Below are positions 11,413 through 19,171 of a stretch of DNA of 64,000 nt, one piece after another (the stretch's first letter is position 1; each line of letters begins with the position of its first letter). Source of the DNA: Pelagibacteraceae bacterium (GTDB lineage: Bacteria; Pseudomonadota; Alphaproteobacteria; HIMB59); NCBI GenBank assembly GCA_019651435.1, contig BOYI01000003.1, positions 112,054 to 176,053 on the forward strand, read 5' to 3'. Made by a program: the position numbers and the translations under genes. The notes below the pieces were generated by a model that saw only the letters and a program-made list of their open reading frames with translations, had not been told where the DNA came from and did not search any database.

Positions 11413-12330
11413 TTATGAGAATAAATCGCCTTCTGTAAACACTGCTGTGTTCATGTCTTTCACATATAGTTTTCCCTGATCTGATTTAAATCTTGAAACT
11501 TCAATGAAACCACCTTTTACAGCTATTCGAATATTTTCAGCATTGATGGAAATAATTTGCCCTGGAAAGTGTTCAGCACTTTGCTCATCAATAAACTTAG
11601 TGTCAACAAAAGTAAATTCATCTCCCATGAATTCTGCCCACGCACCTGGTTGTGGATTACACCCTCTGATTAAGTTATATACTTCTCTACCAGGTTTTTT
11701 CCAATCAATTCTAGCATCTGCTTTTTTACACCAAGACTCATAGGTTGCTTTGGATTCATCCTGAGTTATTCGAGGAGCATTTCCTGCAGCAATCATGTCT
11801 GCGGCTTCAACACAGGCATCGACTCCTAAAGGAAAGATCTTTGAAAAATAAACATCTCCTAAAGTATCATCTGGTCCAATTTCAACTTCTTTTTGAAGTA
11901 AAATTTCACCCTCATCAAGTCCATCATTTGGATAAAAAATTGTCAAACCAGTCTTCTCAGAGCCCCAGATAATAGGCCAGTTAATGGAGCTTGGACCTCT
12001 GTGTAAAGGAAGAAGAGATGGATGGAAGCAGATTGAACCATGTTTAGGAATGTCTCTAGCTGCCTCTGGAACAAAAATAATCACGTATGCCATCACACAT
12101 AAATCTGCGTCATGAGACTTAATCTGATCTAAAACTTCTTGATCTTTGAAATTTGAAGGTTGAAAGACAGGAAGACCGACACTTTGAGCATACTCTTTTA
12201 CTGGATCTAATGGCTTACCTTCTTTATCTGGAGCGCAGTAAACAGCTACTACTTCGTGATCTGTCCCAGTATGAAATTTTTCTAAAGCACTTTTGCCAAA
12301 TGCTTGTTGTCCCATAAGTATAATTTTCAT
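11413..12330 (-). CDS. Formyltransferase-like enzyme, ALDH1L1 N-terminal-domain type
   Basis: The protein has 305 residues, with an N-terminal formyltransferase fold and a C-terminal Fmt-like OB domain. It resembles the hydrolase domain of 10-formyl-THF dehydrogenase (HPSLLPLHRGPSSINW, GLTIFYPNDGLDEGEILLQ) more than methionyl-tRNA formyltransferase. The catalytic pair is His103 and Asp139, 36 residues apart as in GART (108/144) and ALDH1L1 (106/142). The Asn of the Asn-Ile-His motif is replaced by Cys101. A GGGAG ribosome site lies about 7 bases before the ATG. Next to a CoA-transferase and a ThDP lyase, it may move formyl from formyl-CoA to folate, or hydrolyse a formyl donor. This role is inference. 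Confidence 0.8.
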   Translation of the reverse strand: MKIILMGQQAFGKSALEKFHTGTDHEVVAVYCAPDKEGKPLDPVKEYAQSVGLPVFQPSNFKDQEVLDQIKSHDADLCVMAYVIIFVPEAARDIPKHGSICFHPSLLPLHRGPSSINWPIIWGSEKTGLTIFYPNDGLDEGEILLQKEVEIGPDDTLGDVYFSKIFPLGVDACVEAADMIAAGNAPRITQDESKATYESWCKKADARIDWKKPGREVYNLIRGCNPQPGAWAEFMGDEFTFVDTKFIDEQSAEHFPGQIISINAENIRIAVKGGFIEVSRFKSDQGKLYVKDMNTAVFTEGDLFS

Positions 12331-12353
12331 TTGTTTTTCTCCCTGTGTTAATG

Positions 12354-13600
12354 TTAAACAGCTCCAGCTTCCCTGACAGCTTTAATTTCTTCATCACTCA
12401 TATTACAAAATTCTTTAAGTATTTCATCAGTATGTTCACCTAATAAGGGCGATCTTTTTACTTCTGCTGGGGAGTCTGATAATTTAATTGGATTACCAAC
12501 TGTTAAATACTTTCCTCTTACTGGGTGATCCACCTCAACGACAGTACCGGTTTCTCTAAGGCCTGGATTCTTCGGCTATTTCTTTCATAGAAAGGATAGG
12601 GCCTACCGGAATATCCAATGGATTACAAATCTCCATAACCTCAAATTTTGTTTTAGTTTTTGTCCATGACTCAATAGTGTCAAATATATTGTTCAATCGT
12701 GGTAGTCTTTTCTCTGGTGTTGAGTAGTTCTCATCTTCTTTCCATTCTGGTTTTCCAATAACATCACATACTTTTTCCCAAACTGCTGCTTGAGTAATGA
12801 AATAAGTGTATGCATTAGGATCGGTTTCCCAACCTTTACATTTGAGAATTCTACCTGGTTGTCCTCCACCAGAGTCATTACCAGCTCGTGGTGTAGAGTC
12901 TCCAAAAGGAATATCTTCACCATACTGTGAATATTCTTTCAAAGGTCCTCTCTGAGTCTTTGTTGATCACGTAGCTTTACTCTACATAGGTTTAAAACAC
13001 CATCCTGCATAGCTGCAGATACTTTTGACCTTTACCTGATTTTTCTCGATGAAAAAGCGCCGTAACTATCCCAAGAGCTAAATGAAGACCAGTACCACTG
13101 TCACCAATTTGAGCTCCAGTGACTAACGGTACCTCACCTAACATACCTGTTGTTGAGGCAGATCCACCGGCACATTGGGCAACGTTTTCATATACTTTAC
13201 ACTCTTCATATTTTCCTGGGCCAAAACCTTTTACAGATGCATAAATCATTCTAGGATTAAGTTCTTGAATTTTTTCCCAGGTAAAGCCCATTCGATCCAA
13301 CGCTCCAGGCGCAAAGTTTTCAACCATCACGTCACATTCTTTTATTAACTGGGCGAAAATCTTCGCTCCCTCAGGTTTTTTAGGGTTTAGTGTAATGCTT
13401 CTCTTGTTAGAATTGAGCATTGTAAAGTAGAGGCTATCCGCTTCAGGGACATCTCTAAGTTGGCCACGAGTAGCATCTCCTACCCCAGGACGCTCAACTT
13501 TAACAACATCCGCACCAAACCATGCCAATAATTGAGTGCATGTTGGGCCTGACTGAACATGAGTCATGTCCAGAACTTTTACACCTTTAAGAGCTTCCAT
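12354..13600 (-). CDS. Class III CoA-transferase (Frc/CaiB family), with frameshifts
   Basis: The reconstructed protein is about 415 residues, normal for the family. The N-terminal piece (12992-13600) has GVKVLDMTHVQSGPTCTQLLAWFGADVVKVERPG and the SITLNPKKPEG segment. The catalytic Asp region reads VENFAPGALDRMGF. The middle piece is 12556-12942, and the C-terminal piece from about 12560 down to the stop at 12354 reads LRETGTVVEVDHPVRGKYLTVG-type residues. Frames slip near 13010 (A-run in caaaag), 12950 and 12565. It resembles formyl-CoA:oxalate CoA-transferase and CaiB proteins; the acid substrate is unknown. It lies 8 bp after the ThDP enzyme gene. Confidence 0.85.
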
Positions 13601-13608
13601 TGTTTGAA

Positions 13609-17528: not shown

Positions 17529-17554
17529 ATGATTTATTTACCTTTCTTCATAAA

Positions 17555-18169
17555 TTATTTTATAAATCTGTTAGCTAGAAAGACTAAGGCAGATGGTGAA
17601 AGTACAGTGACAATTATATATATCCAAATCATAAATAATGAACTTGAACCATACATAACATCGTAAACTGGATAAAATAAAGGTTCAGATATTCCTTGAG
17701 GCAAAGGAATTTTTAACAACCATTCAAAAAATAAAAAAGTCAAAATGGGGGTTGTTATAGAAAAATTAAGAATAAATGAATTACTCTTTTCACTAAAATA
17801 TCTTAAATAGAAAGCTAAGAAAAAAATTAAAGAAAAATAAATTCCCAAATAACCAATAGCAAAAACTAAAACTACAAGTGAAATTATAGTTACCGATACA
17901 AACTTAAAAGCCACAGCATCAATAAAAGGCTCGTTATTTGTGGATTGTGGAGATTTTTTTAAAATGAATTTAGTGATGGTAATTACAGTACAAATGAACA
18001 TTCCTAATGAGAGGTAGAAGGGAAGAAACCCAGCTCCCATATTTTCTTCTGCACTCCATGTAATTCTGTTTTGCGCGCTTTTATACATAAGAGCGAGTGA
18101 GCACAGTGCTAAAACTACAGCGACAGTTATTTCTGCCCTTCTAACTGTAAATTTAGTAACTATGCTCAA
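17555..18169 (-). CDS. tctB: Tripartite tricarboxylate transporter small membrane subunit TctB
   Basis: The protein has 204 residues, with an N-terminal hydrophobic helix (AEITVAVVLALCSLALMYKSA) and three further hydrophobic segments, the usual poorly conserved TctB pattern. NMGAGFLPFYLSLGMFI is the recognisable 'GPGFFP' motif region. Position between tctC and tctA secures the call. It is somewhat longer than a typical TctB. Confidence 0.88.
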   Translation of the reverse strand: MSIVTKFTVRRAEITVAVVLALCSLALMYKSAQNRITWSAEENMGAGFLPFYLSLGMFICTVITITKFILKKSPQSTNNEPFIDAVAFKFVSVTIISLVVLVFAIGYLGIYFSLIFFLAFYLRYFSEKSNSFILNFSITTPILTFLFFEWLLKIPLPQGISEPLFYPVYDVMYGSSSLFMIWIYIIVTVLSPSALVFLANRFIK

Positions 18170-18191
18170 TATTCGCTCTTAATTTATTTTA

Positions 18192-19171
18192 TTAGTCAAA
18201 GTTTTTAATGATCTCACCGTGCTTAGCGTATTCAATTGCTAAGAAATCCTTTTAAAACCATATCCCTCTAACCAGCTCATTAACTTTCCATCGTCGATGT
18301 TGAAAGTTTGGAACTCATCATCATGATAAACAGTGTGAAGAAGTCCTGTGTAGTACTTTTCCACTTCTGCATCAACACCAGCTGGAGCCATAAATGCTCT
18401 CATCATGTAGTATTCAAGATCAGGATAACCTAATTCATAAGAAGAAGGTACATCTGGGAATGCTGGGTTTCTTTCTGGAGTCATCATAACTAAAGCTTTT
18501 GAGTCACCAGACTGATAGAATCCCATCTGCTCAGAAGGGTTGTTTAAAGTGAAGTCAGACTCGCCGCCAACTAGACCTTTAGCAACAGCACCACCACCGT
18601 CATATGGTACGTACTTTGCATCAAATCCAAACTGACCTCTCATCATACCAAGAAGTAATTCGTCTTCTGACATACTTCCTGTACCACCCATTACTAGACC
18701 ATTACCTCTAGCAAGTGCAATGAAGTCATCAAATGTTTCTACACCTTGAGTATTTTTACCTTCAGTTGCAATCCATACTAAGAATGTATCTGTGATAAGT
18801 CTTGCTAATGGAGTGAAGTCATTGAAGAAATCAATTCCTAATTCAGGCTGGTTAACAGGTGTAGTTAGAACGTTGTTAAGAGTAATGATAAGTGTGTGCT
18901 CATCACCAGCTTTTTTCTTAACATAAGTCATAGCTTCACCACCAGAACCACCTTTTTTATTAATTGGAATCACTGGCTTAGATGCGTAGTCGTTTTTCTC
19001 GATAACACCTTGTACTAATCGAGCGATCTCGTCAGCTCCTCCACCTTGACCGGCTGGGATAATAAGCTCAATAGGCTTCTTTGGACTAAAAGGCTTCGCA
19101 GAAGATATTGAACTTACAGCTACAAGTGAAAGGGAAACAACAACTAGCGCTAGTTTTTTAATAATTGTCAT
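18192..19171 (-). CDS. tctC: Tripartite tricarboxylate transporter periplasmic binding protein TctC (Bug family), frameshift near the end
   Basis: I place the start at 19171 because AGGAGG lies 6-11 bases upstream and the product then opens with a signal peptide, MTIIKKLALVVVSLSLVAVS, cleaved around SSA-KPF. Bug-family features follow: ELIIPAGQGGGADEIAR, NKKGGSGGEAM and the YVPYDGGGAVAKGLVGGESDF ligand-loop region. The open frame ends at 18239 as GFKRIS. Restoring one A in the AAAA run gives KKDFLAIEYAKHGEIIKNFD and a stop at 18192, a normal Bug C-terminus. The carboxylate ligand cannot be read out. It is the first gene of the tct operon. Confidence 0.93.

Follow-up and report, generated by a model that had tools for sequence, protein, structure and literature searches.

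What would a member of HIMB59, an ocean group that is widespread, take up and break down with an operon that joins a tripartite transporter, a coenzyme A (CoA)-transferase, a thiamine diphosphate (ThDP)-dependent enzyme and a free-standing formyltransferase? The question is raised by a stretch of 64,000 nucleotides of Pelagibacteraceae bacterium DNA (assembly GCA_019651435.1, contig BOYI01000003.1, positions 112,054 to 176,053; hereafter the window), in which open reading frames and profile matches place the genes tctC-tctB-tctA-gntR-ThDP enzyme-frc-formyltransferase on the minus strand at 11413-19210. An original prediction had described an organic-acid uptake and CoA-activation island for oxalate or a 2-hydroxy acid, which would be cleaved to formyl-CoA and its formyl group passed to folate or released as formate. 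The island stands, with oxalate as the best-supported substrate, and so do the order and common strand of the seven genes; frame breaks in the ThDP, CoA-transferase and GntR genes had been overlooked. The source is a draft of 1.35 Mb in seven contigs from the HIMB59 clade, 69% complete according to its record, and we used a one-contig relative (G030; 1,410,127 bases), in which the seven genes are separated by 7-62 bases, as an intact reference in place of the broken window genes.

We propose, with a probability of roughly 0.6, that the operon imports oxalate and degrades it in a cycle of formyl-CoA:oxalate CoA-transferase (Frc) and oxalyl-CoA decarboxylase, in which the ThDP enzyme acts as a non-canonical decarboxylase and the formyltransferase, here called FmtX, swaps formyl groups between 10-formyltetrahydrofolate (10-formyl-THF) and CoA and thereby primes the cycle. 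A broader version, which we put forward tentatively and at somewhat less than even odds, is a folate-primed cycle in which Fhs and the free-standing FmtX together amount to an ATP-driven formyl-CoA synthetase, a second family supplies the decarboxylase, TctABC is the importer and the streamlined HIMB59 clade becomes an open-ocean consumer of oxalate.

Frc and two types of decarboxylase, one of them predicted

The CoA-transferase gene (12354..13600, minus strand) lies in three frames in the window (12992-13600, 12556-12966 and 12354-12575), the longest piece scoring 221.6 bits against CoA_transf_3. Its intact G030 counterpart passes the equivalog model TIGR03253 (699.8 bits, cutoff 504.2, residues 2-415), which the two longer window pieces also match, each under the cutoff as a fragment. 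With 60% identity to Escherichia coli Frc/YfdW, and E. coli YfdW and Oxalobacter Frc as best solved structures (E 3.5e-164), the enzyme is a formyl-CoA:oxalate CoA-transferase in its predicted activity.

Among 386 sampled genomes of Alphaproteobacteria, treated as independent even where several share a genus, 33 carry frc: 17 with a canonical oxalyl-CoA decarboxylase (Oxc), 15 with the ThDP clade, none with both and one (G282) with neither. Across all 386 genomes, canonical Oxc occurs in 17 and the ThDP clade in 16, again without overlap, the sixteenth ThDP genome (G125) having its frc cut by a contig end. If genomes are taken as independent, the chance of zero overlap among the 33 frc genomes is 1.5e-8. 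Outside the HIMB59 genus, all 12 sampled ThDP genomes have frc at that locus, one of them at a distance of 5 kb, so that the co-occurrence called for by the original prediction is borne out; one Actinoplanes locus (L075) has the ThDP gene without frc. The ThDP clade adjoins oxlT, encoding an oxalate/formate antiporter, in Phyllobacterium, where it is annotated, and in G317, G115, C. metallidurans and Caballeronia, where the assignment is based on 52-63% similarity. Because both decarboxylase types occupy an equivalent position, between GntR and frc-fmtX-fhs in clusters with TctABC, the ThDP enzyme (13609..15284, minus strand, in the two frames 13944-15284 and 13609-13986; TPP_enzyme_N 129.7 bits) most likely decarboxylates oxalyl-CoA.

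In G282 (L283), frc is accompanied by OxlT-like and La6-type ketopantoate-reductase-like genes and by no decarboxylase of either kind, and this genome perhaps uses an oxalate-reducing route only. In G323 (L284), two frc genes lie about 7 kb apart with an OxlT-like gene between them, one of them beside a canonical oxc.

Within the genus, 30 of 37 genomes, counting that of the window, gave a match to the ThDP gene; of 23 same-order genomes outside it, none did (60 relatives searched at E 1e-60). The seven genomes without a match are all drafts of 50-79% completeness; those at least 90% complete are positive in seven of seven cases.

The formyltransferase FmtX

FmtX (11413..12330, minus strand; Formyl_trans_N 100 bits) is a protein of 305 amino acids that consists of the two formyltransferase domains alone, with no acyl carrier protein (ACP), aldehyde dehydrogenase (ALDH) or crotonase-like domain in Pfam. 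We set aside an identity as methionyl-tRNA formyltransferase (Fmt), since FmtX scores 166.8 bits against TIGR00460, below the cutoff of 201.5, and G030 has a separate Fmt gene at 200.8-201.7 kb, 38% identical to E. coli Fmt. The best PDB match is the hydrolase domain of 10-formyl-THF dehydrogenase (E 3.6e-64, against 8.2e-38 for Fmt), which the active-site stretch also resembles, unlike that of Fmt, with the same His, Ser and Asp. In architecture FmtX is neither a HypX, having the N-terminal formyltransferase without the C-terminal crotonase-like domain, nor an ALDH1L, having the hydrolase-like part only, with no fused carrier or ALDH domain; HypX also ranks low in a fold search. A tree that included Fmt and HypX was distorted by long branches and was rebuilt without both, and in the rebuilt tree the two Oxc types do not resolve into a single group apiece.

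The 10-formyl-THF dehydrogenase hydrolase domain hands its formyl group to a phosphopantetheine thiol (PMC4388273), and HypX has been proposed to transfer formyl from 10-formyl-THF to CoA (PMC6802093). Judged from its sequence relatives, FmtX probably exchanges formyl between folate and CoA. The original prediction of such a step is thus upheld as probable, the HypX proposal gives folate/CoA formyl transfer a precedent, and the direction favoured by that prediction, towards folate, is unlikely to be the main job, as discussed below.

Linkage ties FmtX closely to Frc. It was found in 32 of the 386 genomes, in 26 of 33 with frc as compared with 6 of 353 without (Fisher 1.8e-28), and outside the HIMB59 genus in 22 of 29 frc genomes as compared with 6 of 353 others (1.7e-24); one of the six frc-less genomes is G125, where frc is merely cut off. 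The gene adjoins frc in 18 of the 26 genomes and lies elsewhere in eight. Since 14 of 17 Oxc genomes and 12 of 15 ThDP genomes have it, FmtX is partnered with the Frc/formyl-CoA step rather than with the ThDP clade in particular. Next to it, in 12 of the 14 frc loci outside HIMB59 where the position is visible (Baikal and La6 included; G343 and G387, at contig edges, are left out), stands fhs, the two exceptions being G111 and G271; in G030, fhs lies away from the operon.

Some fmtX genes stand apart from frc or look different. An open frame of 730 amino acids in G100 resembles an frc-fmtX fusion, which we rejected, as the two genes are actually in different frames. The unlinked fmtX of G159 adjoins fhs. 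A scan of 20 proteins around seven of 14 unlinked loci found an alpha/beta-hydrolase gene beside fmtX in three (G413 and G156, of one hydrolase family, and G395; loci L139, L153 and L147), with other neighbours varying.

The proposed cycle and the direction of formyl transfer

In the proposed mechanism, oxalate would enter through TctABC, Frc would shift CoA from formyl-CoA to oxalate, yielding oxalyl-CoA and formate, and the ThDP enzyme, by its exchange with canonical Oxc, would convert oxalyl-CoA to formyl-CoA. As Frc uses one formyl-CoA per oxalate and the decarboxylase gives one back, the cycle needs a starter and runs down on losses: each oxalyl-CoA or formyl-CoA lost by hydrolysis or by reduction to glyoxylate would halt one turn. 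In quenched mixtures, formyl-CoA had a half-life of 1.9 h (PMC3720670). Because the formyl-CoA cycle cannot start itself, a priming role in oxalate catabolism was proposed for E. coli YfdE, whose product from acetyl-CoA is oxalyl-CoA (PMC3720670). In HIMB59, Fhs would make 10-formyl-THF from formate, ATP and THF, and FmtX would pass the formyl group on to CoA, a step that may run either way. The released formate could be oxidized by formate dehydrogenase (FDH) or enter folate metabolism, and glyoxylate, if made by the PanE-like reductase described below, could become glycine. Matches to Fhs, FolD and FDH are present elsewhere in the G030 genome.

At other loci, the accessory place is taken by an ADP-forming acyl-CoA ligase (G345, G115, G066, G397, Phyllobacterium, Streptomyces, C. 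metallidurans and Caballeronia), a candidate formate- or oxalate-CoA ligase, whose job Fhs and FmtX together would do from formate, ATP and CoA. The ligase and fmtX do not occur together at any of the frc loci read and, by genome, fmtX is present in 25 of 29 frc genomes that lack the ligase as compared with one of the four that have it (p 0.023). The family itself, of about 710 amino acids and below NCBIfam cutoffs (L238:5459-7585, L281, L282, L097 and L105), was seen in four of the 386 genomes, all four with frc.

The most serious competitor, which we consider unlikely rather than remote, has FmtX use formyl-CoA as the donor and THF as the acceptor, bringing oxalate carbon into folate without ATP. 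The enzyme family and the gene linkage are equally compatible with it, and the transfer from formyl-CoA to folate is probably the downhill direction. A second one-carbon source would also be useful to G030, where E. coli GcvP has no match at E 1e-3, though several GcvT-like matches are present, and where folate one-carbon supply may therefore lean on formate and serine. However, draining formyl-CoA would stop the cycle unless another oxalate activator were at hand, and a search of G030 at E 1e-10 turned up neither the acyl-CoA ligase nor another YfdE/Frc-type gene. Moreover, Fhs, which adjoins fmtX at most other loci, already turns the formate released by Frc into 10-formyl-THF. We therefore regard flow from folate to CoA as more likely, and a single reversible FmtX could serve both directions.

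A less probable alternative makes FmtX a hydrolase, either of 10-formyl-THF, giving formate and THF, or of formyl-CoA. Its nearest solved relative is indeed a hydrolase domain and hydrolyses 10-formyl-THF when given a free thiol (PMC4388273), but FmtX is missing the carrier domain that supplies this thiol, such an activity beside Fhs would give a futile, ATP-burning cycle, and the strong linkage to the CoA-transferase would be left unexplained.

Three observations weigh against the account of a folate-primed Frc/decarboxylase cycle. The ThDP enzyme falls far short of both Oxc family models (243.9 bits, cutoff 739.4, for TIGR03254; 257.8, cutoff 557, for PRK09259), as compared with 937 and 949.7 bits for the canonical Oxc of La6. 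A simple replacement of the ligase by Fhs and FmtX is opposed by four frc genomes that lack both fmtX and the ligase, and by G225 and G314, in which fmtX and fhs are accompanied by a second CoA-transferase-like gene (32% identity to YfdE or Frc).

Identity of the ThDP enzyme

At the sequence level, the ThDP enzyme is distant from Oxc, with 25% identity to the E. coli protein. The Oxc residues Tyr120, Glu121 and Tyr483 (O. formigenes numbering, residue list from PMC10192776), located by motif on the E. coli sequence, are present in five canonical Oxc rows of our alignment and missing in all eight ThDP-clade rows. A structure model of modest confidence separates ThDP families weakly.

That the protein is instead a 2-hydroxyacyl-CoA lyase (HACL), acting on a 2-hydroxy acid rather than on oxalate, seems improbable to us. 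In its favour, AcHACL is the best solved relative (E 3.9e-78), and the lyase model NF058623 (HdaclCoAlyACT) scores 355.6 bits, above the Oxc models; yet this is far under the cutoff of 600, the query and each of 13 aligned clade members have Ile at the position of the catalytic Glu493 of AcHACL (recognized from the titles of mutant structures), and the clade replaces Oxc without overlap and adjoins oxlT and Frc. We have set aside the simple HACL reading on these grounds. An acetolactate synthase, the name in public records, those of the JGI included, and that of the top NCBIfam model (PRK05858), is the least credible reading by a wide distance, given a score of 491 bits under a cutoff of 587, a separate gene in G030 that passes TIGR00118 (739.4 bits, cutoff 538.35) and is 27% identical to the ThDP enzyme, and the presence of frc at the locus in all 12 sampled genomes outside the genus.

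The original prediction had offered Oxc or HACL as the family and firm clustering with acetolactate synthases as grounds for doubt. Both family cutoffs are missed, and the comparison with acetolactate synthases came out mixed: the best solved relatives are CoA-dependent lyases, and the top model name, below its cutoff, is acetolactate synthase, with little help from the structure model. A predicted non-canonical oxalyl-CoA decarboxylase remains our preferred identity.

Transport, regulation and flanking genes

All three components of a tripartite tricarboxylate transporter are present by Pfam: TctC, the substrate-binding protein and predicted oxalate binder (18239..19210; PF03401 80.9 bits; 32-44% identical to TctC at other frc loci), TctB, the small membrane subunit (17555..18169; PF07331 67.2 bits), and TctA, the large membrane subunit (16014..17528; PF01970 480.8 bits), all on the minus strand. 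The TctA of G030 shares 67% identity with that of the marine La6 oxalate plasmid and 38% with the other TctA in its own genome. TctA lies near frc at 20 of the loci read and an OxlT-like gene at nine (one at 24%), with no locus having both, as expected if TctABC replaces OxlT; on this linkage, TctABC is the predicted oxalate importer. The GntR/FCD regulator (15347..16004, minus strand; FCD 53.8 bits) is split over two frames, and an intact relative of 219 amino acids is found at L078 (11749-12408).

Outside the operon and 3-4 kb from it lie genes for a PanE-like reductase (22416..23393, minus strand), a candidate oxalyl-CoA reductase by its similarity to genes of other oxalate clusters, and a BhcA-like aminotransferase (23395..24555, minus strand), a candidate for the step from glyoxylate to glycine, which is near BhcA, the aspartate-glyoxylate aminotransferase, and scores 575.9 bits, below the cutoff of 650. 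The G030 copy of the reductase is 48-55% identical to five oxalate-cluster genes, 41% to that of Actinoplanes and 20% to E. coli PanE. As proof of oxalyl-CoA reduction it is weakened by PanB and PanC matches in G030; going by these sequence matches, it may serve as the cell's ketopantoate reductase, for pantothenate. Oxalate clusters hold two very different ketopantoate-reductase-like lineages (L237:20532-21584 and L238:19531-20556), of which that of L238 alone matches the HIMB59 gene. A glycerate route found no support in G030: at E 1e-10 neither Hyi nor GlxK was matched, and Gcl best matched the acetolactate synthase. The flanking sucC-sucD pair (20340..22410, plus strand) was considered as a dedicated oxalate or malate ligase and rejected for HIMB59: it is the sole sucCD found in G030 and probably a tricarboxylic acid cycle enzyme.

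Downstream of the operon, on the same strand and after a gap of nine bases, the window continues with antiporter-like genes (7487-11403), which we take to be of the Mrp/Mnh Na+/H+ type. The gene adjoining fmtX is seen at 34 of the 41 related loci, at one of them in part, and is missing from L068-L070, whose oxalate genes remain clustered.

Frame breaks in the window

Matched to G030 ORFs of at least 150 amino acids at a coverage of at least 80%, 13 of 48 window genes are split between frames, housekeeping genes included, among them genes near 37922 (glyA-like) and 31860 (707 amino acids). At 38 of the 41 related loci, TctA, ThDP enzyme, Frc and formyltransferase are each unbroken over at least 85% of their length; these include the Baikal locus L073, where tctA is on the opposite strand. 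Of the other three, two are cut by a contig end and one is that of Actinoplanes, where the ThDP gene alone was found. Since breaks are frequent across the window and the four genes are kept intact elsewhere, the frame breaks are most simply read as sequence errors. The low completeness at 1.35 Mb also fits such errors.

Implications

Earlier work has reported oxc genes and oxalotrophy from the sea (PMC10192776). Among the matches listed in the open-access literature, we found no formyltransferase of the FmtX kind or TctABC tied to oxalate operons, no oxalate use by HIMB59 and no such ThDP clade as a decarboxylase. If our reading is true, records of the ThDP clade named ‘acetolactate synthase’ or ‘thiamine pyrophosphate-binding protein’, which come from alphaproteobacteria, actinobacteria and betaproteobacterial plasmids, would be oxalyl-CoA decarboxylases, and surveys based on oxc would overlook about half of the sampled frc-carrying alphaproteobacteria (15/33). 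FmtX would be a stand-alone enzyme joining the formyl-CoA and folate pools, and oxalate would join the HIMB59 diet, tying dissolved oxalate to marine carbon turnover.

Comparison with known systems

Serine-cycle assimilation of oxalate reportedly takes place in M. extorquens, and a serine-cycle-type plasmid of La6 brings together oxc-frc-fmtX-fhs with genes for a ketopantoate-reductase-like protein, glyA, a BhcA-like glyoxylate aminotransferase, FDH, ppc, sucCD, TctA and TctB, its TctC being assigned by similarity. In HIMB59, as represented by G030, nothing matches the La6 ppc, and only part of the set is near the operon.

FmtX shares with HypX (HoxX), of CO synthesis for NiFe-hydrogenase, a formyltransferase domain in a protein proposed to transfer formyl between 10-formyl-THF and CoA (PMC6802093), but lacks the crotonase-like decarbonylase domain, is found in oxalate operons and is 17% identical over the aligned fold. 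Among solved sequences its closest relative is the N-terminal hydrolase domain of ALDH1L (36-38% identity when structurally aligned), whereas FmtX is free-standing, with no ACP-like or ALDH domain. For the ThDP enzyme, the nearest solved sequence is that of the actinobacterial AcHACL, which differs in its catalytic Glu493, where the HIMB59 enzyme has Ile, and in the company of its operon.

The closest system as a whole is the Frc/Oxc catabolism of Oxalobacter formigenes and of E. coli (yfdXWUVE), with which the HIMB59 operon shares a true Frc, a ThDP enzyme in the place of Oxc, a cyclic use of formyl-CoA and the idea of an accessory primer. At 50% identity, the known Oxc sequences, 1396 in number, join into a single network (PMC7190790), whereas the HIMB59 ThDP enzyme comes from another clade, TctABC stands in for OxlT, and formyltransferase and Fhs stand in for YfdE. 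We rate the HIMB59 operon as a variant of the known Frc/Oxc pathway.

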